This document shows, piece by piece, positions 7,364 through 22,512 of a stretch of DNA of 64,000 nt. Each line of letters starts with the position of its first letter. Positions within the stretch are counted from its first letter, which is position 1. The stretch spans positions 1 to 64,000 of the forward strand of contig NZ_QLAE01000026.1 of NCBI RefSeq assembly GCF_005876855.1, written 5' to 3'. A program made the position numbers and the translations under genes. The notes under the pieces were generated by a model. It ran no database searches. It was given only the letters and a program-made list of their open reading frames with translations, and was not told where the DNA came from. The stretch is from Stutzerimonas nosocomialis (GTDB lineage Bacteria; Pseudomonadota; Gammaproteobacteria; Pseudomonadales; Pseudomonadaceae).

Positions 7364-9967
7364 TCAACCCGGCGGGTTGGCCAGGCCTAGGGGCATGGCG
7401 CCGACCTGATCCTCGACGTGCGCCCGCGGCGTCCGGGCCAGGGCGAAATAGGCGTCGCGCCAGGGCCGGTGGCGGTCGTCGCTCCAGACCAGATAATGCA
7501 GCCGCGCCAGGCCCTGGGGATCGTCGAGCAGCTTCCAGCGTGCCTCGTCGGCGCCGTTCGGCCCTGCCGCCAGCACCCTGTCCAGACGCTGCACACGCAG
7601 CGCTTCGGCCGCCGCGACCGACTTGCCATGGCGTCCGCGCGCCATCGCGCTGGCCAGGGCGTTGATCCGTGGCTCGACCGCCGCACGCAGGAAGCCATGG
7701 CTCAGCGCGTTGCGGTTGTTCAGCTGCAGGTAACGATCGGTCGCCTCGAGCTCGCGTGGCGGTGCGTATTCCTCCGGAATCAGGAACAGCTTGGCGCGCC
7801 GGCTGGAAAGCCCGGGTCGGGTACGGCTGGAGAACACCGAGACCGGCGCCGAGAGCAGCAGCGACACCACGATGGGCGCCAGCCACCAGAGGAACAGCGG
7901 GTCGAGCCAGGCGACGCCGGCCGTCCAGACCACGCCCAGCAGCATCTGCCAGCCGTGACGGGCCAGCGCCTCGCTCCAGGGCGTCGCATCGTCGTCGCGC
8001 TTGGGCGAATTCCACTGCACCGACCAGCCCAGGAAGGCCGCGGTGACGAAGACCGTGTGGAAGAGCATCCGTACCGGCGCGAGCAGCACCGAGAACAGGG
8101 TTTCGAGCAGCATCGAGAGCAGCAGGCGGATTCCGCCGCCGTATTCCCGCGCGCCCTTGGCCCAGATCAGCACCACGCTGAGCAGCTTGGGAAGGAACAG
8201 CAGCGTCAGGGTGGTGGAGAACAGCGCGATGGCCTGTTGCGGATTCCAGCGCGGCCACACCGGGAACAGCTGACCCGGCTGGAAGAAATACTGCGGCTCC
8301 ATCAGCGTGTGGATCGCCAGCAGCGCGGTGGAGAGGATCAGGAAGAGGAACCACAGCGGCGCCGACAGGTAGGACATCACCCCGGTGAGAAACACCGCGC
8401 GGTGCACCGGATGCATGCCCTTGACCAGGAACAGGCGGAAGTTCATCAGGTTGCCGTGGCACCAGCGGCGATCGCGCTTGAGCTCGTCGAGCAGGTTCGG
8501 CGGCAGTTCCTCGTAGCTGCCCGGCAGGTCGTAGGCGATCCACACGCCCCAGCCGGCACGGCGCATCAGCGCGGCTTCGACGAAGTCGTGGGAGAGGATC
8601 GCGCCGGCGAAGGAACCTGTGCCAGGCAGCGGCGCCAGGGCGCAGTGCTCGATGAAGGGTTTGACCCGGATGATCGCGTTGTGGCCCCAGTAATGGGACT
8701 CGCCGAGTTGCCAGTAATGCAGGCCCGCGGTGAACAGCGGACCGTAGACCCGGGTGGCGAACTGCTGCATGCGTGCATAGAGCGTGTCCATGCCCGAAGC
8801 CTTGGGGGCGGTCTGGATGATCCCGGCGTTCGGGTTGGCCTCCATCAGCTGCACCAGGCGGGTCAGGCATTCGCCGCTCATCACGCTGTCGGCGTCGAGC
8901 ACCACCATGTAGCGGTAGTCGGCGCCCCAGCGGCGGCAGAAGTCGTCGATGTTGCCGCTCTTGCGCTTGACCCGGCGGCGGCGGCGCCGATAGAAGATGT
9001 GCCCGAACCCTTTTACCTCGCGGCACAGGTCCAGCCAGGCCTTCTGCTCGGCGACGCACTTGTCCGGATCGTTGCTGTCGCTGAGCACGAACACGTCGAA
9101 ATGCTCGAGCTGGCCGGTGGCCGCCAGCGACTCGTAGGTCGCCCGCAGACCGGCGAACACCCGCGCCACGTCTTCGTTGGCGATGGGCATCACCAGCGCG
9201 GTGCGCGCCCGGGGGTCGATGGGCTCGTCGCCGACGGTATTGGCCGAGATGCTGTATCGATCGCGCCCGCGCAGCAGCTGCAGAAAGCCCATCAGCGCGG
9301 TCCAGAAGCCCACCGATACCCAGCAGAACAGCAGCGCGAAGAGCAGCAGGATGCTGGTCTGCACCGCATAGGGCAGCACCTGGGTGATGGTCGCCAGGAC
9401 ACCCTGCTGGCGGATCTCGTCCAGGTTCAGGTCCATCAGCGCCCAGCCCTGGTAGGGCAGCACGGCCTTCATGTACCAGGTCGCGACACCGGTCTGGGTG
9501 AGCATCAGCGCCACCAGGACGAAACGCCGGAACGCCGCGACGGTGCGCCAATGCGCCTTCGCGTCGGCTTCGCCTGCGGGTTTTTCCTCGGGCCGCTGGC
9601 GGCCGAACAGCTTGCGCCAGCCGCGCACCAGCGGGTTGGTCTGCCAGGGATCGGGCACCATCGGCGAACGCACGATGGGGGGCGTGCTCCTGATGCAGAC
9701 GCGTCCCTGGTGGTCGGTCATCAGCAGCTGGCCCTGATCCAGCGCCTCGCCCCAGTCGGCCTGCAGACGCGCGGCGGTCGAGCCGAGCACGGCGTCGTCG
9801 GCGCTGCCGCCGGAAGGCGTCCCGGCGCCCGCCAGCGCACGGTGCAGCGCCTGCAGGTCGCCGCCCTCGGCGGCGACCCGGTTGGCCAGCGCCTGGCGCT
9901 CATCGTCCTCCAGGGCGATCTGGTCGAGGTAGAGACGCGCCTTATCCGGCTCGACAGGACTAGTCAT
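7364..9967 (-). CDS. opgH: Glucans biosynthesis glucosyltransferase H
   Basis: An 867-residue inner-membrane family 2 glycosyltransferase that polymerises UDP-glucose into the beta-1,2 backbone of osmoregulated periplasmic glucans and moves it across the membrane. The catalytic signature is clear: an N-terminal helix pair, then [16 protein letters not shown] (DxD), a TAP/QTAP stretch, [14 protein letters not shown] and the [10 protein letters not shown] (QxxRW-like) motif, followed by several C-terminal membrane segments. The start codon lies inside the end of opgG (8-nt overlap), so the two are co-translated. Length is as expected for Pseudomonas OpgH. Confidence 0.97.
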
Positions 9968-11513
9968 GGACGGGTATCTGGTAGCTCCAGGTTTCCGACA
10001 GCGGCTTGTCGTCCTGCACCAGCGCGGCGCGGAGTTCGACCGGCTGTGCCGGGTCCTTGATCCTCAAGCGCAGGGTCAGGCGCCAGCCCTCGGTCACCGG
10101 GTTGTAGCGGACGCTGTTTTCCACCAGCTCGCCGTTGGGGTTGACGCTGACCTGCGCGGTCACCGGCGTGTCGGCGGGCAGGTTCGCCAGCACCGGGCCT
10201 TCGAAATCGACGATGTAGGCCGTGGTGCCGTCGGGCTGGCGGATCAGGTTCGGCTGCTTGATGTCGCCCACCGACAGGCGCGTCTGCTTGACCCAGGCGA
10301 GCTGCGGATCGTGCAGCGCCGGTTCGTCCATGGTGAAGTGCAGCCGATAGCCCAGCTCCAGCGGCTGACCCCGCTCGGGCAGCTCATCGGGCGTCCAGAA
10401 GGCGACGATGTTGTCGTTGGTCTCGTCCGGCGTCGGGATCTCCACCAGCTCGACCCGGCCCTTGCCCCAGTCGCCGCGGGTTTCCACCCAGCCGCTCGGG
10501 CGCAGGTCGTAACGGTCGTCGAGGTCTTCGTACTGGCTGAATTCGTGGCCGCGCTGCATCAGGCCGAACCCGCGCGGGTTCTCGACCGCGAAGGTGCTCA
10601 CCGCCAGGCGCCTGGGGTTGTTCAGCGGGCGCCAGATGCGCTCGTCGTTGCCGGCGTGAATGGCCAGGCCGTTGGAATCGTGGATCGCCGGGCGGAAGTT
10701 CGGCTGGGCGCTCGGCTGGTTCGGGCCGAACAGGTACATGCTGGTCAGCGGGGCGATACCGAGCTTGGCGACGTTCTCGCGCAGGAAGACCTTGGCCTGG
10801 ACATCGAGGGTGCTGTCCTTGCCGGGCGTGACCACCATGCGATAGGCGCCAGTGGCGCGCGGCGAATCGAGCAGGGCGTAGATCACCAGGTTGCGGCGAT
10901 CCGGCGCCGGATGCTCGACCCAGAACTCGCTGAAGCGCGGAAATTCCTCGCCCGACGGCAGCGCGGTGTCGATCGCGAGCCCCCGTGCCGACAGGCCATA
11001 GACCTGTCCCTTGCCGATCACGCGGAAGTAGCTGGCGCCCAGCAGGGTCATCAGCTCGTCGTCGCGCTTGTCGGGCTCGTTGAGCGGATACATGACCTTG
11101 AAGCCTGCAAAGCCCAGGTGCTCGAGCGAAGCGGGATCGAGCTGCAGGCTGCCGAAATCGAAGTAGTCCGGCGAGTAGTCGATCTCCTTGACGCCCGTGG
11201 CGGTGATCTCGTGGATCTTCACCGGCACGTCGAAGTGCATGCCCTGGTGATAGAAGAACAGCTGGAAGGGATTTTTCTCGTCGGCCCAGCGGCCTTTCTC
11301 GGTGCGGAAGCGGATCTGCTGATAATCGGCAAATTTCATTTCGCGGAACACGGCGGGCAAATTGCTTTGCGGCGCCACGTAGGGGCGGCCGGCCAGTTCC
11401 TTCGCCTTGACCGCGACGTCGTCCAGGCTGAACGCCCAGGCGCTGGTCGCCACACTGGCCAACAGGCAGGACAACAGCCAGACGGCCATCCTGTTGCGCG
11501 GTTTTGCTGACAT
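9960..11513 (-). CDS. opgG: Periplasmic glucans biosynthesis protein G
   Basis: A 517-residue periplasmic protein with an N-terminal signal peptide (basic start, hydrophobic core, cleavage near AWA-FSLDD). The mature part begins as other OpgG proteins do ([15 protein letters not shown]) and keeps the family motifs [11 protein letters not shown] and GRGFGLMQR-like [12 protein letters not shown]. It works with OpgH in making osmoregulated periplasmic glucans, probably in branching or processing. The ATG at 11513 has AAGGG 5 nt upstream; a longer frame to 11654 would bury the signal peptide and is rejected. Confidence 0.95.
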
Positions 11514-11968
11514 CGACACCCTTTTCACTAACACATCTTGCCCCTTAGGTTCGCGCGGGAATCCGACGCTCGACCGGACCCCGGATTGAAGCCAGGTTGG
11601 CCAGACAGCATCGATACGAAGAAAACGATTTGTTCTTGTTGCCGCCAGGCTCACTGCATCCGGCGGATCGACCGAGTAGCGGGTCTCGAGACCGGCCCTG
11701 GTCCTTAGTCAGCGGGGCGTATCTTATCCAGTCGGATGACCGCTGACAGCGGGGGTAACCCCCCGTTCGATGAAAATTTTTACCATAAGTTCGGTCCCCT
11801 GCCCGACAAGGCTCCAGACGTTGCCAGCCGGGCCTTCCAGACGCCGGCAAACCGGCATGCGACAGGCCCGCCGACAAGCCGCCGGCACCGACGGCGACCG
11901 TTCCGGACAGGCGTGTCGCGACCATTCGCAGTAGGCTGGTGACCGACACAGCAGCGGCCAGCGCACCG
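11514..11968. other. Divergent intergenic region between opgG and the LysR gene
   Basis: No gene is supported here. It separates the leftward opgGH operon from the rightward LysR gene and must hold both promoters. One short hairpin is seen near 11752-11766 (GGGGG-TAA-CCCCC type), next to an A/T-rich patch at 11771-11785. No convincing -35/-10 pair was found by eye. Confidence 0.5.
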
Positions 11969-15345: not shown

Positions 15346-15410
15346 AGGCGCAGCGCAGGCGGGCGCCCTGGATGTTCTAGAATGCAGGACCGCCCTCCGG
15401 AACCCCGACG

Positions 15411-15854
15411 ATGATCAACGCCAAACTGCTGCAACTGGTGATCGATGCCTCCAACGACGGCATCGTCGTCGCCGAACAAGAGGGCGACGACAACATCCTG
15501 ATCTACGCCAACCCGGCCTTCGAACGGCTCACCGGCTATGGCGTCGAGGACATCCTCTATCAGGATTGCCGCTTTCTGCAGGCGGGGGACCGCGCCCAGG
15601 TCGGTCTGGCGGCGATCCGCGAGGCGTTGCGCAACCGCCAGCCGTGCCGGCAGGTCCTGCGCAACTACCGCAAGGACGGCTCCTTCTTCTGGAACGAGCT
15701 GTCGATCACCCCGGCATTCAACGAAGCCGATCAGCTGACCTACTTCATCGGCATCCAGAAGGACGTCAGTGCGCACATGGACGCGCTCGAACGGGTGCGT
15801 GAGCTCGAAGCGGAAGTGGCGCGACTCAAGGAAGCGCTCGCCGCCAAAGGCTGA
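15411..15854 (+). CDS. Short LOV-domain blue-light photoreceptor (PpSB1-LOV-like)
   Basis: A 147-residue protein made of one PAS/LOV core (about 15-118) and a C-terminal coiled-coil helix, with no effector domain. The photoactive cysteine is Cys53 in DCRFLQ, and the flavin-contacting motifs NYRKDGSFFWNELSITP and YFIGIQKDVS are intact. Asp replaces the usual Asn before the Cys, as in P. putida PpSB1-LOV, which it resembles closely over its length. FMN binding and light-driven cysteinyl adduct formation follow from the family. It converges on the LitR-like regulator gene with 2 bp between the stops. In P. putida a short LOV protein acts with a LitR-type repressor to sense light. Confidence 0.93.
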   Translation: MINAKLLQLVIDASNDGIVVAEQEGDDNILIYANPAFERLTGYGVEDILYQDCRFLQAGDRAQVGLAAIREALRNRQPCRQVLRNYRKDGSFFWNELSITPAFNEADQLTYFIGIQKDVSAHMDALERVRELEAEVARLKEALAAKG

Positions 15855-15856
15855 CC

Positions 15857-16813
15857 TCAAGTATCCAGGTGGCCGCCGAGGAACTGCTGCAGACGCCGCT
15901 GCATCAACCGGCCGGACTGGCCCAGACGGGCGATCGGACTGCCGCCGAGCTCCTGTTCGGCGAGCTCCGCGGCTTCGCCGGCGATCGCCAGCGGGCAGCT
16001 GAGGCCCAGCGCCAGCCGGTTCAGCTGGCGCAGCGACTCGTTGCCCAGCAGGTGGTTGGAGAACAGCACCAGCGCCTGGGGCTGCATCTTTTCACAGACC
16101 AGGGTCAGCTCTTCGAGCGGCTGCCCGAGCGCCAGCACGCTGACCGCCACCTCCCCCGCTGAAAGAAGCAGGCCGGCGACCAGCAGTTCCAGCTCACGGC
16201 ACTGGCCGGGAATCGCCGCCAGCAGCACCCGCTGCGGTGCCTGGCTGCGCGCCAGCTGCAACCGTTGCAGCACCCGCGCGCGCAGGAAGGCGTCGAGGAA
16301 CAGCCATTCGCTGGTGCGCCCGAAGTCATCCGGGCGCTGCACAAGACCCTGCCAGACCGGCATCAGGATCTGCTCGAAGGCCACCGACGCGGGATAGGTC
16401 GAGAACACCTGGCCGTAGACCTGCTCGAGCCGCATCTCGTCGAAACCGGCCACGGCGCGCGCCAGCTGCGCCTGCCATTCGGCCCACTCGCCGCTGGCGA
16501 CCTCCTCCGGGCGTGCCTGGCGCTGCGCCGACGGGACGCCCTGTCCGCGCGCCAGGATCTTGCCGACCTTGCTCACCGAGACGCCACGCTCGATCCAGGC
16601 GAGGACGCTCTGCACCGTCTCGATATCGGCCTGGGAATAGAGCCGGTGACCGCTCTCGGTGCGCGTCGGCTGGATCAGCCCATAGCGCCGTTCCCAGGCG
16701 CGCAGGGTGACCGGATTGACCCCGGTGACCCGCGATACTTCGCGGATGGGGAACAGTTCTTCCTGTCCGAGCCCTGCCGAAGCGGGTGAAGGATTACCGG
16801 CGAATTCGGTCAT
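15857..16813 (-). CDS. MerR-family LitR/PplR-like light-response regulator without B12-binding histidine
   Basis: A 318-residue regulator. The MerR helix-turn-helix (about 20-90: FPIREVSRVTGVNPVTLRAW, RRYGL, SGHRLYS) is followed by a cobalamin-binding-like helical and Rossmann region. The place of the B12-ligand motif (DxHxxG) reads PGQCRELE, with no His, so adenosylcobalamin is probably not bound. This matches the P. putida PplR type, which relies on a LOV partner. It is the last gene of a leftward unit (epimerase, hemH, regulator) and lies back to back with the LOV gene. TGTACA boxes upstream of the epimerase are its likely operators. Confidence 0.85.
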   Translation of the reverse strand: MTEFAGNPSPASAGLGQEELFPIREVSRVTGVNPVTLRAWERRYGLIQPTRTESGHRLYSQADIETVQSVLAWIERGVSVSKVGKILARGQGVPSAQRQARPEEVASGEWAEWQAQLARAVAGFDEMRLEQVYGQVFSTYPASVAFEQILMPVWQGLVQRPDDFGRTSEWLFLDAFLRARVLQRLQLARSQAPQRVLLAAIPGQCRELELLVAGLLLSAGEVAVSVLALGQPLEELTLVCEKMQPQALVLFSNHLLGNESLRQLNRLALGLSCPLAIAGEAAELAEQELGGSPIARLGQSGRLMQRRLQQFLGGHLDT

Positions 16814-16929
16814 GGCAGCTCAAGCCCACGCATTCGAAAGCGGCCGATTGTAACGCAAGGTTACCGAGGGCCGTTCGCACCCGGACAGGCAGAACGACCG
16901 CCCGTCCACCGGCCGGGAGCGTCGGCCGC

Positions 16930-17955
16930 TCACAGCTGCACGGGCGCGCGGCGGCACAGCGTCACCAGCGCCCGGACCCAGTCGGGATGGCCGTTCAGGC
17001 AGGGCACCAGCTGCAGGTCTTCCCCGCCGGCGGCGATGAACTGTTCCCTGCCGCGTTCACCGATCTCCTCCAGCGTCTCGATGCAATCGGCGACGAACGC
17101 AGGGCACATCACCAGCAGCTTGCGCACGCCCTGCTGGGCCAGCGCGTCCAGCCGCGCCTCGGTGTAGGGCTCGATCCATTTGGCGCGGCCCAGGCGTGAC
17201 TGGAATGCCATCGACCATTGCTCCGGCCTGAGTCCCGCCCGTTCGGCGAACCCCTCGGCGGACCGGAAGCACTGCGCACGGTAGCAGCTGGCGAGCACGT
17301 CGCCTTCGGCCCGCTGGCAGCAGTCGGCACCCTTGAGGCAGTGGTCGCCGCGCGGGTCGCGCTTGTGCAGATGGCGCTCGGGCAAGCCGTGGAAGCTCAG
17401 CAGCAGGTGATCGAAGCCCTCCTCCAGGTAGGGCCTGGCGCTCTCGACCAGGGCCTCGAGGTATTCGGGCTCGTCGTAGAACGGCTGCAGGACCGACAGC
17501 TGCAGCTCAAGCCGATGCGCGGCGATGACCCGCCGGGCCTCCTCGATCGCCGTCGTGGTGGTGCTGTCGGCGAACTGCGGATACAGCGGGGCGAAGGTCA
17601 CCCGGGTGATGCCCTGCCCGGCCAGGCGCAGCAGGGCGCGCTCGATCGACGGCTCGCCATAGCGCATCGCCAGCTCCACCGGCCCTTGGGTCCAGTGAGG
17701 CGCCACCGCCTCCTGCAGCTGCCGGCTCAGCGCGATCAGCGGCGAACCTTCGGGCCACCAGATCGAGGCGTAGGCATGGGCCGACTGGGCCGGGCGCCTG
17801 ACCAGGATCAGCGAGACCAGCAGCCGGCGCAGCGGCCAGGGCAGGTCGACCACGTGAGGGTCCATCAGAAACTGGTTCAGGTAGCGCCGCACATCGGCCA
17901 CCTCGGTGGACGCCGGAGACCCGAGGTTGACCAGCAATAACGCCTGCGTTGCCAT
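16930..17955 (-). CDS. hemH: Ferrochelatase
   Basis: A 341-residue ferrochelatase, the last enzyme of haem synthesis, inserting Fe2+ into protoporphyrin IX. Recognisable features are LLLVNLGSP at the start, [10 protein letters not shown], the active-site His in [11 protein letters not shown], and the C-terminal [15 protein letters not shown] with its conserved Glu. The ATG at 17955 starts MATQALL; an upstream ATG at 17988 would add an unrelated tail. It follows the epimerase gene by 48 bp and precedes the LitR-like gene by 116 bp. Placement in a light-controlled unit makes sense because protoporphyrin is a photosensitiser. Confidence 0.95.
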
Positions 17956-18003
17956 GAATGGAAAGATCCTTGTCGTCGAAAAAAACACCGGGCGCCGGTT
18001 ACC

Positions 18004-18900
18004 TCACCGCAGCAGATCCGCCAGCGCCTGGTCCAGCGTCTCGAAGCGAAAGCCGAACCCCTCGGCCTGCAGGCGCGCCGGCACCGCCCGCTGCCCGCCG
18101 AGCAGCAACCCGGACAGCTCGCCCAGCGCCAGCTTGAGGGCAAACGCCGGAACCGCGAAGACGGCGGGACGTCGCAGCTGCGTCGCCAGGCTGCGGGTGA
18201 AGGTCTGGTTGCGCACCGGCTGTGGCGCGCAGGCGTTGAACGGGCCGCGGGCCTGCGGGTGGTGCAGCAAAAAATCGATCAGCGCGACCTGGTCATGCAG
18301 GTGAATCCAGGGCATCCATTGCTGCCCGTTGCCCAGCCGACCGCCAAGGCCCAGGCGAAAGGGCGGCAGCAAGCGCTGCAGGAAACCGCCCTCGCGGGCC
18401 AGGACGAGGCCGGTGCGCACCCGAACCACCCGTATCCCGAAGGCCTCGGCACGGCTCGCCGAGTCTTCCCAGGCCCGGCACAGGCGGCTGGCGAAGTCGT
18501 CGGTCAGCGGCTGGGCCTGCTCGGTCAGCTGCAGATCGCCGCCATCGCCATACCAGCCCACCGCCGAGCCCGAGATCAGCACCGCGGGGCGCTGCTCGCG
18601 CGTGGCGAGCCAGTCCACCAGCGTATCGCTGAGCGTGACGCGACTCTGCCAGAGCAGCTGGCGTCGCTTTTCGGTCCAGGGCCGGTCGGCAATCGGAGCG
18701 CCGGCCAGGTTGACCACGGCGTCGAGCGGCTCGCTGTCGAGCGCCTGCAGCTGGCCAATGCCCCGTACCTGGGTCCCGCAGCGCCGAGCAACCTCTTCGG
18801 GGCGGCGACTCCAGACGGTCAGGCGATGCCCCTGGGCCTGCCAGTGCGCGCAAAGCGCCCGGCCAATGAGCCCGGTACCTCCAGTCAGCAATAGGTGCAT
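18004..18900 (-). CDS. TIGR01777-family NAD(P)-dependent epimerase (YfcH-like)
   Basis: A 298-residue extended short-chain dehydrogenase/reductase. The nucleotide-binding start LLLTGGTGLIGRAL, the conserved NLAGAPIADRPW and the SGSAVGWYG motif define the TIGR01777/YfcH group, and the C-terminal tail carries the DUF1731-like end (GFRFETLDQALADLL). Substrate unknown. The start at 18900 has AGGAGG 7 nt upstream. It is the first gene of the leftward unit and is preceded by TGTACA-type boxes. Orthologues accompany photolyase genes in other pseudomonads, which supports a light or UV-response link. Confidence 0.88.
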   Translation of the reverse strand: MHLLLTGGTGLIGRALCAHWQAQGHRLTVWSRRPEEVARRCGTQVRGIGQLQALDSEPLDAVVNLAGAPIADRPWTEKRRQLLWQSRVTLSDTLVDWLATREQRPAVLISGSAVGWYGDGGDLQLTEQAQPLTDDFASRLCRAWEDSASRAEAFGIRVVRVRTGLVLAREGGFLQRLLPPFRLGLGGRLGNGQQWMPWIHLHDQVALIDFLLHHPQARGPFNACAPQPVRNQTFTRSLATQLRRPAVFAVPAFALKLALGELSGLLLGGQRAVPARLQAEGFGFRFETLDQALADLLR

Positions 18901-18946
18901 GGCGACCTCCTCGTCAGGCGGAACGCGCCCATCGGCGCCACGTCTC

Positions 18947-18972
18947 TGTACGGATAGCACGACACTGTACAA
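18947..18972 (-). promoter_or_regulatory. TGTAC boxes upstream of the epimerase-hemH-regulator unit
   Basis: Two copies of the TGTAC core lie 19 bp apart (18947-18951 and 18966-18972, the second TGTACAA). They sit 47-72 bp upstream of the epimerase start, in the promoter zone of the leftward unit. The same core is repeated in the divergent promoter region, so both units probably share one regulator, most likely the LitR-like protein. Confidence 0.6.
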
Positions 18973-19102
18973 CTTCCAGCGACTCACCGGGGCTGCCGGC
19001 TTCTCGTTCCTGCTGCGCAGGCCATGCGCCGTACCGCTTCAGGAACGCTGCGCCGTTGGGTTAGGAAGGTGATCGGTCATACAGGGCTCGCCCGGCGCCT
19101 CC

Positions 19103-19186
19103 TGTACAGCCGCTTTGACTTGTACAAGATCCGTTCTATGATTGTCTAAGTTGTACAGTTTTTATTTGATGTACAGATTTATGTAC
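19103..19186 (+). promoter_or_regulatory. Array of TGTACA operators upstream of the TudS/DUF1722 gene
   Basis: Five boxes are present: TGTACA at 19103-19108, 19121-19126, 19152-19157 and 19170-19175, plus TGTACG at 19182-19187. Two pairs have the same 18-bp periodicity (19103/19121 and 19152/19170). The second box lies immediately after a -35 element, so occupancy would block RNA polymerase. CarH/LitR-family regulators bind repeated TGTACA-type motifs over promoters, which fits the LitR-like gene in this cluster. Confidence 0.75.
19115..19142 (+). promoter_or_regulatory. Sigma-70 type promoter embedded in the TGTACA array
   Basis: A -35 TTGACT (19115-19120) and a -10 TATGAT (19137-19142) with a 16-bp spacer point toward the TudS/DUF1722 and photolyase genes. 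One TGTACA box fills the first six bases of the spacer and others flank the promoter, an arrangement expected for a repressed, light-released promoter. Confidence 0.7.
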
Positions 19187-19198
19187 GAGAGGTCCGCC

Positions 19199-20161
19199 AT
19201 GCCCATCCCCGACGCGCGCAGGATCCGCATCGGCATCAGCGCCTGCCTGCTGGGCAATCCGGTGCGCTACAACGGCGGGCACAAGGAGTCGCGCCTGTGC
19301 AGCCAGACACTGGCCGAGCACTTCGACTTCGTTCCGGTGTGCCCGGAAGTCGCGATCGGCCTGGGCACGCCGCGCGAGCCGATCCGTCTGGTCGGAGACC
19401 CGGCCGATCCACGCGCGGTCGGCACGGTGGACCGCGCGCGGGACGTCACCGATGCCCTTGCCGCCCATGGCCGGCGCATGGCGCGCGAACTGGGCGACAT
19501 CTGCGGCTACATCCTGATGCAGAAATCCCCGTCCTGCGGCATGGAGCGGGTCAAGGTCTACCGCCACGAGGGCCACCCCAGCGGGCGCGGCGGCACCGGC
19601 ATCTTCGCCCGTGAACTGCTCGAAGCCCGCCCGGATCTGCCAGTGGAAGAAGAGGGCAGGCTCAATGACCCGGTGCTGCGGGAAAACTTCCTGACCCGGG
19701 TATTCGCCTATGCCGAATGGCAGCGCCTGCTGGCCGGCGAGCTGACGGCCAAGGCGCTCATGGATTACCACGCGCGCTACAAGTACCAGCTGATGGCCCA
19801 CGATCCGCAGCAGTACCGCGCGCTCGGCCAGCGCCTGTCGAACCTCGGCGGGCAACCCCTGCGCGAGGTCGGCGCGCACTACTTCAGCCAGCTGATGGCG
19901 GCCCTGAAGAAGACCGCCACCCGCGGCACCCACAGCAACGTGCTGCAGCACATGGCCGGCTATCTCAAGCGCGCCCTGAGCGCGGACGAAAAACAGGAAA
20001 TGCAGCACCTGATCAGCCAGTACCGCGAAGGCATCGTGCCGCTGGTGGTGCCGTTGACGCTGCTCAAGCACCACCTGCGCCGGCACCCGGACGGCTACCT
20101 CGCACGTCAGGCCTACCTGCAACCGCACCCGGAACGACTCAGCCTGCGTAACGCCATCTGA
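19199..20161 (+). CDS. TudS-like DUF523 domain fused to DUF1722 (YbgA) domain
   Basis: A 320-residue two-domain protein. The N-terminal DUF523 half (about 8-155) has the three Cys that hold a [4Fe-4S] cluster in the thiouracil desulfidase TudS: Cys16 (SACLLG), Cys48 (VCPEVAIGLGTPREPIRL) and Cys113 (KSPSCG). The C-terminal DUF1722 half (about 195-310: YHARYKYQLMAH, THSNVLQHMAGYLK) matches E. coli YbgA, whose gene adjoins phrB. The start at 19199 follows GAGAGG. It is the first gene after the TGTACA promoter and precedes the photolyase remnant by 57 bp. A role in clearing thiolated or damaged bases after light stress is inference only. Confidence 0.85.
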   Translation: MPIPDARRIRIGISACLLGNPVRYNGGHKESRLCSQTLAEHFDFVPVCPEVAIGLGTPREPIRLVGDPADPRAVGTVDRARDVTDALAAHGRRMARELGDICGYILMQKSPSCGMERVKVYRHEGHPSGRGGTGIFARELLEARPDLPVEEEGRLNDPVLRENFLTRVFAYAEWQRLLAGELTAKALMDYHARYKYQLMAHDPQQYRALGQRLSNLGGQPLREVGAHYFSQLMAALKKTATRGTHSNVLQHMAGYLKRALSADEKQEMQHLISQYREGIVPLVVPLTLLKHHLRRHPDGYLARQAYLQPHPERLSLRNAI

Positions 20162-20218
20162 CATGACCTTCCCGATATCCCCGGCGGCGACGTCCGGGCA
20201 GCGGCCGAGCGCGCCAAC

Positions 20219-20839
20219 ATGACCCAGCTCTACTGGCTGCGCACCGACCTGCGCGTGAGCGACAACACCGCGCTCAGCGCGGCCATGGCCGCCGGCCCCA
20301 CCGTGGCGCTCTACCTGATCACGCCGGGCCAGTGGCGAAGCCATGACGACGCCCCCTGCAAGGTCGACTTCTGGCTGCGCAACCTGAGCGCCGTGAAGCG
20401 CGAGCTGGAACGGCTCAACGTGCCCTTGCTGGTGCGCACGCTGGATCGTTGGGACGAGGTGCCGGCGCTGCTGGCAGCGCTGTGCCGCCGGCATGCGCTG
20501 CGCGCCATCCATGTCAACGAGGAATACGGCGTCAACGAACAGCGCCGCGACCAGGCCGTGGCCGCCGCGTTGCAACCCTCGGACGTGCCGCTGCGCCGGC
20601 ACCTGGATCAGCTGTTCGCGCCCGGCTTCGACCCGCAGGGGCGCTTTCTGCGTCATTGGCTGCCGGAGCTGGCGGGCCTCGATGACCGCGCCATCCACGA
20701 CCCCGTCGCCCGCGCGGGCCTCTTCAAGACGCCTTACCTACCGCCCATCGTCGACCTGGCCCAAAGCCGAGAAAGAGTCCTGTCGGCCTTCAAGAACCTG
20801 TCGCGAACGGCCGATACGCTGAATGTCCCGGGCGCTTAG
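20219..20839 (+). pseudogene. phrB: Internally deleted deoxyribodipyrimidine photolyase
   Basis: A 206-codon open frame with both ends of a photolyase but no middle. Residues 1 to about 137 are the antenna-binding Rossmann domain (YWLRTDLRVSDNTAL, HVNEEYGVNEQRRD, LDQLFAPG). From about residue 138 the frame jumps to the last 70 residues ([35 protein letters not shown]). Family members have about 470-480 residues, so roughly 265 residues of the helical FAD- and DNA-binding domain are missing. The join near 20629 is in frame and the start and stop are intact, which points to a recent clean deletion. The product cannot bind FAD or repair pyrimidine dimers. Confidence 0.85.
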
Positions 20840-20847
20840 GCGAAGGG

Positions 20848-20936
20848 GCCGTCGCAACCGCATGGCGACGGCACCGTCAGGCATCCGGGGCCACCTTCGG
20901 GGGAGGGGCCGACCGGGGATCCAGGGGGATCCCCGG
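20848..20936. repeat. Two hairpins after the photolyase remnant
   Basis: GCCGTCGC (20848-20855) pairs with GCGACGGC (20865-20872) across a 9-nt loop. Further on, CCGGGGATCC (20913-20922) pairs perfectly with GGATCCCCGG (20927-20936) across the loop AGGG. Neither is followed by a T-run. They lie between the light cluster and the chemoreceptor gene and may mark the end of the light-regulated transcript. Confidence 0.5.
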
Positions 20937-21015
20937 CCGTGCAGGCATACCAGGTAACAACGCACGAACCTACCTATGGCCAGGGATGCGCCGCTCCTAC
21001 ACTGCGAGACACACC

Positions 21016-22512
21016 ATGAGCAGTACCGAACTCACGCTGCAAAGCCACTACCGCCAAGCCGACCGCATCATGATCGGCGTCCTCTGGCTGCTCTTCGCCT
21101 GCTCCCTCGGACTGGGCGCCTTCCATGGCCACTGGGTCCAGGCCGTGGTCATCGGCGGCGGCACCGCCGTCTCGATGACCGTCCTCTACCAGCTCATCCC
21201 GGGCCAGCGCCTGCTGCGCTGCATGATCGGCGCCGCCTTCATGGTCATGTCGGCGCTGCACATCAATCAGGCCCACGGCCTGCTGGAAGTCCACTTCGGC
21301 ATCTTCGCCCTGCTCGCCTTCCTGGTCTATTACCGTGACTGGCTGCCGATCGTGGTGGCGGCAGCGACCATCGCGGTCCATCACCTGACCTTCTTCGCCC
21401 TGCAGCAGCAGGGCGCGCAGGTGTTCATGGTGGAGCACGGCAGCTGGGGCACGGTGTTCCTGCACGGGCTCTACGTGGTGCTGGAAACGACGATCCTGAT
21501 CTACCTGGCGCTGCGCGGCCATGCCGAGGCCCGCGAAGGCGAGGCGCTGGTGAGCGCCGTGGTGGGCCTGACCGCGAGCGGCGAGCGGGTCGACCTGCGC
21601 CACCGCAGCCAGGTCAGCGGCCCGGTGGCCAGCCGCTTCAACCGTTTCCTCGACCAGCTCGGTGAGCTGGTCGGCGCGGTGCTGCACGACACGCGGGGCC
21701 TGGACGGCACCGCCAGCAACCTGGGCGAGGCGACCCGCCAGCTGCGTGAAGGATCGTCCCGCCAGCTGCACGAGACCGCCTACATGGCCGGCGCGATGCA
21801 GCAGATGAGCGAAGCGATAGACGAGGTGGCCGGCAACGCCGAACGCGCCTCCCAGGCCGCCCGGGATGCCACCCTCAAGGCCGAGGAAGGACGCCGCGCG
21901 GTCGGCGAAACCCGTACCGTGATCGCCCATCTCGCCGAGCGGATCGACGGCACCGATGCGCTGGTGCAGGACCTGGCCGGGCAGTCCGAAGAGATCGGGC
22001 GGGTCCTGGAGGTGATCCGATCCATCGCCGACCAGACCAACCTGCTGGCACTCAATGCGGCGATCGAGGCCGCCCGTGCCGGCGACCAGGGCCGAGGCTT
22101 CGCGGTGGTCGCCGACGAGGTGCGCAACCTGGCGCAGAAGACGGCCGCCTCGACGCTGGAGATCCAGGACATCATCGGCCGCCTGCAGCAAGGCAGCCGC
22201 CGCGCCGCCAGCGCCATGCAGGACAGCCGCCAGGGCGTCGCCCGTTGCGTCGAGGACAGCCAGCGGACCACGGCGCTGCTGGAGGCGATGGCCACGCAGA
22301 TCGCCTCGATCAGCCAGATGAACGACCTGATCGCCGCGGCGACCCATCAGCAGGCCAGCGTCTCCGTCGAGGTCAGCCAGCACCTGCTCAGCGTGCAGCA
22401 GGTCGCCGAGCGCAACTCCACCGATGCCCGCTCCCTCGACCATGACAGCCAGAGCCTGCGTACCCTGGCCAACCGGCTGGGCGAGGTGACCGGGCGCTTC
22501 GCGATCGACTGA
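21016..22512 (+). CDS. Methyl-accepting chemotaxis protein with a multi-pass membrane sensor
   Basis: A 498-residue chemoreceptor. The N-terminal third (about 15-175) is hydrophobic, with five or six membrane helices and no large periplasmic loop. His residues are concentrated in and near the helices ([25 protein letters not shown]-like AVHHLTFF). A short HAMP-like linker leads to a classic signalling domain whose hairpin tip contains [18 protein letters not shown] and [18 protein letters not shown]. Such a layout suits sensing within or at the membrane, such as redox, light or a lipophilic ligand, but the cue is unknown. Start at 21016 is tentative; an in-frame ATG at 20986 is possible. Confidence 0.88.

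Follow-up and report, generated by a model that had tools for sequence, protein, structure and literature searches.

A 64,000-nucleotide stretch of the Stutzerimonas nosocomialis genome (positions 1-64,000 of contig NZ_QLAE01000026.1, assembly GCF_005876855.1; the whole stretch is called the window below) contains, at 15411-20839, a gene cluster that very probably encodes a PmSB-LOV/PmlR2-type blue-light switch: a LitR-type regulator would repress the promoter of RudS, a predicted tRNA 4-thiouridine desulfidase, in the dark, and a short LOV photoreceptor would release it in the light, with RudS and possibly a TIGR01777 epimerase as the outputs. The genes, key residues, operators, promoter, their conservation and the co-occurrence of regulator and operators are seen directly, and repression, light release, flavin binding and RudS activity are assigned to the window system by homology. 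The source is a 4.76 Mb draft genome of 86 contigs, with completeness rated at 100%. From left to right, the genes are LOV (+), litR (-), hemH (-), the epimerase (-), rudS (+) and a photolyase derivative (+), and the features of the cluster are the following.

15411-15854, forward strand: short LOV blue-light photoreceptor of the PmSB-LOV/PpSB-LOV kind, 147 amino acids, Cys53 in YQDCRFLQ
15857-16813, reverse strand: class II LitR repressor of the PmlR2 kind, 318 amino acids, MerR-type helix-turn-helix (HTH)
16847-16854, reverse strand: GTTACAAT, probable -10 element of litR
16930-17955, reverse strand: hemH, ferrochelatase (PF00762, 3.8e-96), ATG at 17955
17980-17999, reverse strand: weak terminator-like hairpin (-6.4 kcal/mol) followed by seven T, between the epimerase gene and hemH
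18004-18900, reverse strand: TIGR01777 (YfcH-type) epimerase (TIGR01777, 2.7e-105, above cut-off; PF01370, 6e-26; PF08338, 6e-20), ATG at 18900
18947-18971, no strand: predicted epimerase-side LitR operator, TGTACG-N13-TGTACA, one mismatch
19103-19126, no strand: predicted RudS-side operator 1, TGTACA-N12-TGTACA, containing the -35 element
19115-19142, forward strand: sigma70 promoter, TTGACT-N16-TATGAT, with its -35 element inside operator 1
19152-19175, no strand: predicted RudS-side operator 2, TGTACA-N12-TGTACA, between the -10 element and the ATG
19199-20161, forward strand: RudS, TudS-DUF1722 fusion of the tRNA 4-thiouridine desulfidase family (PF04463, 2e-40; PF08349, 1.5e-44)
20219-20839, forward strand: class I photolyase derivative of 206 amino acids, lacking about 275 internal residues in frame, junction at 20626/20627

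A first-pass annotation of this DNA had described the LOV protein as carrying the photoactive Cys53 and no effector domain, and the analysis bears this out. The only Pfam matches are to PAS families (PAS_9, 4e-20), with no further domain, and the protein aligns nearly end to end with solved structures of PpSB-type LOV proteins (residues 1-141 to 7a6p and 1-134 to 3sw1), features that together mark it as a short LOV protein. The adduct-forming cysteine is present in all 119 aligned LOV rows (101 distinct; row counts contain duplicates, and distinct counts are given separately), and flavin binding is predicted by homology. The LOV and litR genes do converge, as had also been noted, with two bases (15855-15856) between their stop codons.

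The regulator combines an N-terminal MerR-type HTH (MerR_1, PF13411; 3e-16) with a cobalamin-type domain, being homologous to CarH, a class I LitR, over both (PDB 5c8d; 2.8e-19 over residues 15-281). Since its PGQCRELE aligns with PGERHEIG of CarH, the cobalamin-ligand histidine is replaced by arginine, and the protein scores 88.6 bits against a CarH model with a cut-off of 400; it is thus a CarH homologue without the ligand histidine, that is, a class II rather than a class I LitR. The earlier claim that it lacks the B12 ligand motif stands to that extent, but no special loss is involved: the ligand column holds Arg in 104 and His in seven of 111 distinct relatives, so Arg is the norm for this branch and the missing motif is a family trait. 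Identity is 55-71% to the LOV-side LitR proteins of the genus versus 36% to the LitR1 query. The 129 rows more than 50% identical to the window protein, a choice made by identity, form one clade in a midpoint-rooted tree (support 0.93) in which LitR1 is not one clade, and 119 of them are accompanied by a LOV gene within the stretch compared. The window LitR is thus nearer to regulators encoded beside LOV genes than to the LitR1 of phr operons. In the tree, its eight nearest rows, in a clade of 64 with support 0.82, all come from loci that are not part of the genus set. Upstream of litR, a GTAAC-N5-GTTAC palindrome was considered as an operator and dropped, because relatives keep GTTACAAT instead (64 of 114 distinct upstream stretches; 75 of 124 rows), an element that for the same reason we read as a probable -10.

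The many TGTACA boxes reported for this region are real, and they resolve into three operators, of which two are perfect and the third is imperfect. The hexamer occurs nine times in the window against 2.75 expected, a count reached in none of 100 shuffles, and five of the nine start within 18966-19170. Both perfect sites, which lie before rudS, match the PplR/LitR operator consensus T(G/A)TACA-N12-TGTA(C/T)A, and TTGACT-N16-TATGAT is the single promoter-like site in 15350-20980 (0.4 expected). Across the genome, strict matches to TRTACA-N12-TGTAYA are confined to the sites at 19103 and 19152, with one match to the backward pattern used as a control. Allowing one mismatch to TGTACA-N12-TGTACA adds one genome site, which is no evidence, because the control then gives three.

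For comparison within the genus we used 56 genomes, that of S. nosocomialis included, and loci from 46 of the 55 others; of the remaining nine, five contain the cluster (G005, G010, G017, G018, G028) and four have no RudS or LitR match (G001, G002, G021, G034). A photolyase is found in 51 of the 56 genomes, DUF1722 in 51, LitR in 49 (E 1e-20) and a LOV match in 48 (E 1e-25), although in G001 that match covers only stretches of large frames. Genome G039 (locus L210), which has LitR and no RudS, photolyase or LOV match, lies outside the operator counts. The window's RudS-side arrangement is widely conserved: TTGAC[TAC]TGTA[CT]A followed by a T-initial hexamer at -10 distance, searched anywhere in the locus, occurs in 41 of 46 rudS loci, the window counted. 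The operators also follow the regulator. RudS-side sites (at most one mismatch, N11-13) accompany all 43 RudS loci with LitR in the genome, the window counted, and none of the three without it (Fisher p ~7e-5, ignoring relatedness), where chance would yield about 0.5 over 38 loci; strict N12 sites occur in 39 of 49 genomes with LitR versus none of seven without (p ~8e-5, again ignoring relatedness). Quite apart from published work, this co-occurrence links the boxes to LitR. One genus subgroup (L168, L187, L212 and similar) has spacers of N13 and N11, in place of N12, at its two RudS-side operators, which suggests either spacer tolerance or different preferences of LitR1 and LitR2.

The model proposed earlier, in which a light-activated LOV protein relieves repression by a LitR-like protein, fits the locus and is better established than had been claimed. 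According to PMC9758184, the lit LOV of the PmSB-LOV/PmlR2 pair of Pseudomonas mendocina binds the HTH part of LitR directly and abolishes its DNA binding, a case of anti-repression. The P. mendocina NBRC 14162 system shares with the window a short LOV with Cys53, a class II LitR without a B12 motif and TGTACA-N12-TGTACA pairs, site 1 lying on the -35 element and site 2 before the ATG; the window operators equal in their letters those footprinted in that species, and the window promoter equals the P6650 mapped there in hexamers, spacing and layout (TTGACT-N16-TATGAT). P. mendocina, however, has a second LitR (PmlR1), a phrB gene, and light-induced genes distributed over several loci, whereas the window genome has a single remaining LitR, both strict operators at one locus and a phr gene with a deletion. 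In two other P. mendocina strains, the neighbouring LOV and LitR proteins are 76-78% and 64-65% identical, respectively, to those of the window. Pseudomonas putida KT2440, with PplR1-3, PpSB1-LOV and PpSB2-LOV, shares the operator consensus and a LOV-dependent light response; unlike the window, it has three repressors, two LOV proteins and 19 light-inducible genes (Sumi 2020, as described in PMC9758184 and PMC8508746). By analogy, LitR in the dark would sit on the two operators over the RudS promoter and block it; blue light would form a Cys53-flavin mononucleotide adduct in the LOV dimer, which would then bind LitR and take it off the DNA, and the RudS made as a result would remove 4-thiouridine from tRNA.

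Three points weigh against this interpretation. Ten of the 49 LitR-bearing genus genomes have no strict N12 site, although N11 and N13 sites are common; the genomes are related, so that the counts of regulator-operator co-occurrence are not independent events; and a gel shift in PMC9758184 gave a ternary complex on DNA in the light, in conflict with the BIAcore result of the same work.

RudS itself has a TudS domain with three cysteines (Cys16, 48 and 113, kept in all 87 aligned rows, 81 distinct) fused to DUF1722, and matches the TudS structure 6z92 at 2.2e-9. PMC11417400 identifies this fusion as a desulfidase acting on 4-thiouridine in tRNA and locates it in LitR/phrB operons, an assignment from which the same activity is predicted for the window protein by homology; from operon order and that paper, PME6650 of P. 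mendocina is presumably RudS as well. The domain fusion and the place in a LitR/phrB operon are common to both descriptions, and the three conserved cysteines are seen in the window protein, but in the window litR1 is absent from between rudS and phr, and phr is defective. The same source calls class II LitR B12-dependent, which PMC9758184 contradicts.

The photolyase, noted earlier as a remnant, is indeed partial, but it is an in-frame internal deletion and not a plain truncation: the first 136 residues are joined to the last 70. Of 49 sequences tried, both flanking motifs could be placed in 33 intact relatives, and in each exactly 275 residues separate the two sides of the junction. The missing part corresponds to about residues 138-407 of E. 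coli photolyase (1dnp), most of the flavin adenine dinucleotide (FAD) core, so that the protein has no complete FAD-binding catalytic domain; it scores 123.6 bits against a photolyase cut-off of 506. It is the sole PF00875 match in the genome, which also has no match to PF04244, whereas photolyase frames of at least 477 amino acids are found in all 50 other genus genomes with a match over the cut-off. The N-terminal part has diverged no further than the neighbouring proteins (z -1.0, versus -1.1 to -1.4 for HemH, RudS, the epimerase and LOV and -0.5 for LitR), whereas the C-terminal part ranks first of 44 in divergence (z -3.4), which makes a fairly recent loss likely. With the next gene of the operon defective, the outputs left to the switch would be RudS and possibly the divergent epimerase.

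These observations could be taken to mean that the light switch is decaying, with the photolyase dead, LitR1 absent, the remainder to follow and the operators mere relics, and the deletion, the single LitR and the four genus genomes with no RudS, photolyase or LitR match (G001, G002, G021 and G034, G021 being only 71% complete) are in keeping with this. We find it unlikely, given two perfect RudS operators, an intact promoter, and LOV, LitR and RudS proteins that retain their key residues and show ordinary divergence. That the deletion is an assembly error, a thought raised by the 86-contig draft, is improbable with a clean in-frame join inside a long contig. Least probable of all, the 206-residue derivative might be a functional small protein: it is in frame and free of stops, with an N-terminal part that has diverged no further than the other cluster proteins, but it lacks most of the FAD core, its match to the N-terminal domain ends at position 129 of 164 in the model, the C-terminal part has diverged as described, and the shortened frame appears in no other of the 56 genus genomes. 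The reading we retain is a predicted light switch with a defective photolyase gene. It would leave a natural strain with a light switch and RudS in which no intact photolyase is found, where the effect of light-induced 4-thiouridine removal alone could be addressed.

The first-pass annotation found hemH, the epimerase and the TudS-DUF1722 fusion around the LOV/LitR pair, all confirmed by profile matches, and singled out hemH and the fusion under the same boxes as the less described part. For the fusion, the pairing is already in print (PMC11417400), and for hemH the link in the window genome is weak. The divergent operator seems to belong with the epimerase rather than hemH. Thirty-eight genus loci, the window counted, have a divergent epimerase; in the others it lies on the other strand (L175, L193, L205), is lacking (L172, L182), or only hemH is present (L181, L195, L196). 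In 36 of the 38, the epimerase is preceded by an operator of its own that lies over 135 bp from rudS, the exceptions being L204 (no site) and L206 (one site shared with rudS across a 97-bp gap). Epimerase starts were taken from the alignment one codon too far out, which makes the operator offsets 3 bp short; under another start choice the count is 34 of 38, against 0.125 expected from shuffles. The spacer is N13 in nine of the 36 sites, the window counted, and the 25 distinct N12 sites all agree at seven of the 12 box positions while no spacer position exceeds 68%, a contrast partly built in because sites were picked by their boxes at no more than one mismatch.

It is conceivable, if doubtful, that this arm is a light operon too, with LitR on 18947-18971 controlling the epimerase and, by co-transcription, the ferrochelatase, so that light would pull protoporphyrin IX into haem and leave less photosensitiser. 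The conserved epimerase-side site argues for it, also in other genera (40 of 96 RudS-bearing genomes compared), where an operator lies at most 210 bp from the epimerase in 22 of 28 loci; so does the 2-26 bp spacing of epimerase and hemH in four of seven other-genus loci (40, 53 and 120 bp in the rest; one or two initial hemH codons may be counted in these figures), which makes a light-haem link more plausible there. E. coli hemH mutants, moreover, build up protoporphyrin IX and avoid blue light, according to the review PMC12627116. Against it stand the imperfect window site and the hairpin, followed by seven T, that precedes hemH, though five such sites fall in the scanned region where 3.1 are expected, and only one of 45 folded epimerase-hemH gaps passed -7 kcal/mol (L173). 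An element GAAAAT[AG], perhaps hemH's own promoter, occurs in 35 of 38 genus gaps and not in that of the window. The operator in other genera has a further neighbour, a flavin amine-oxidase-like gene that diverges from the epimerase in the eight loci examined and in L170 of the genus (the family named from one of them), and may serve that gene. Three epimerase-free genus loci that keep hemH, probably through one event, have no operator beside it, only RudS-side operators at least 270 bp away; this and the hairpin led us to lower hemH as a direct light target in the window genome. In P. putida, we take PP_0743 and PP_0744 to be the epimerase and hemH. There, PP_0738-PP_0742 rise together in co-culture (not a light/dark comparison), and neither PP_0743 nor hemH is named in the available parts of PMC11014904. 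Our literature search found no report of light control of hemH through LitR.

Taken together, the window system is, to judge from its genes and sites, the known blue-light switch, and the photolyase loss and the epimerase-side operator are the points for which the portions of the literature searched on these systems gave no description. We suggest, tentatively, that a complete switch has outlived its photolyase and may now be a one-locus control by light of tRNA de-thiolation and the epimerase, and that across the family the same repressor might have a separate operator from which it governs the epimerase(-ferrochelatase) arm, which would connect light sensing with the neighbourhood of the haem gene. 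The conserved epimerase-side operator provides a LOV/LitR target that can be put to the test, as well as a possible connection between light and haem in other genera.

The commonest order in the genus is litR< LOV> hemH< epimerase< rudS> litR1> phr>, found in 25 of 46 rudS loci, with a chemoreceptor gene added in five more. The window departs from it in that litR sits between LOV and hemH, litR1 is lacking and phr is internally deleted. The tail-to-tail order was ruled out as a unique trait, since two other-genus loci (L263, L264) have it. Among the loci compared, which also include those of named relatives (the best 80 of 114, overlapping the genus loci), the best matches of the window LOV and HemH come from its own genus. 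Two genus loci, L172 and L182 (G009, G024), have a photolyase and a RudS whose match spans only about half of the query (44-46% identity; frame lengths 270-272 amino acids), and their genomes contain no LitR, short LOV or strict operator. In L174, near 9335-11636 (flipped), the rudS and epimerase matches are broken into several pieces, as if frameshifted. After phr, at 20986-22512, the window carries a gene for a methyl-accepting chemotaxis protein, a possible link between light response and taxis; a chemotaxis gene also follows phr in seven of 46 genus loci (L181, L188, L196, L202, L203, L207, L209), some of the stretches ending soon after phr.

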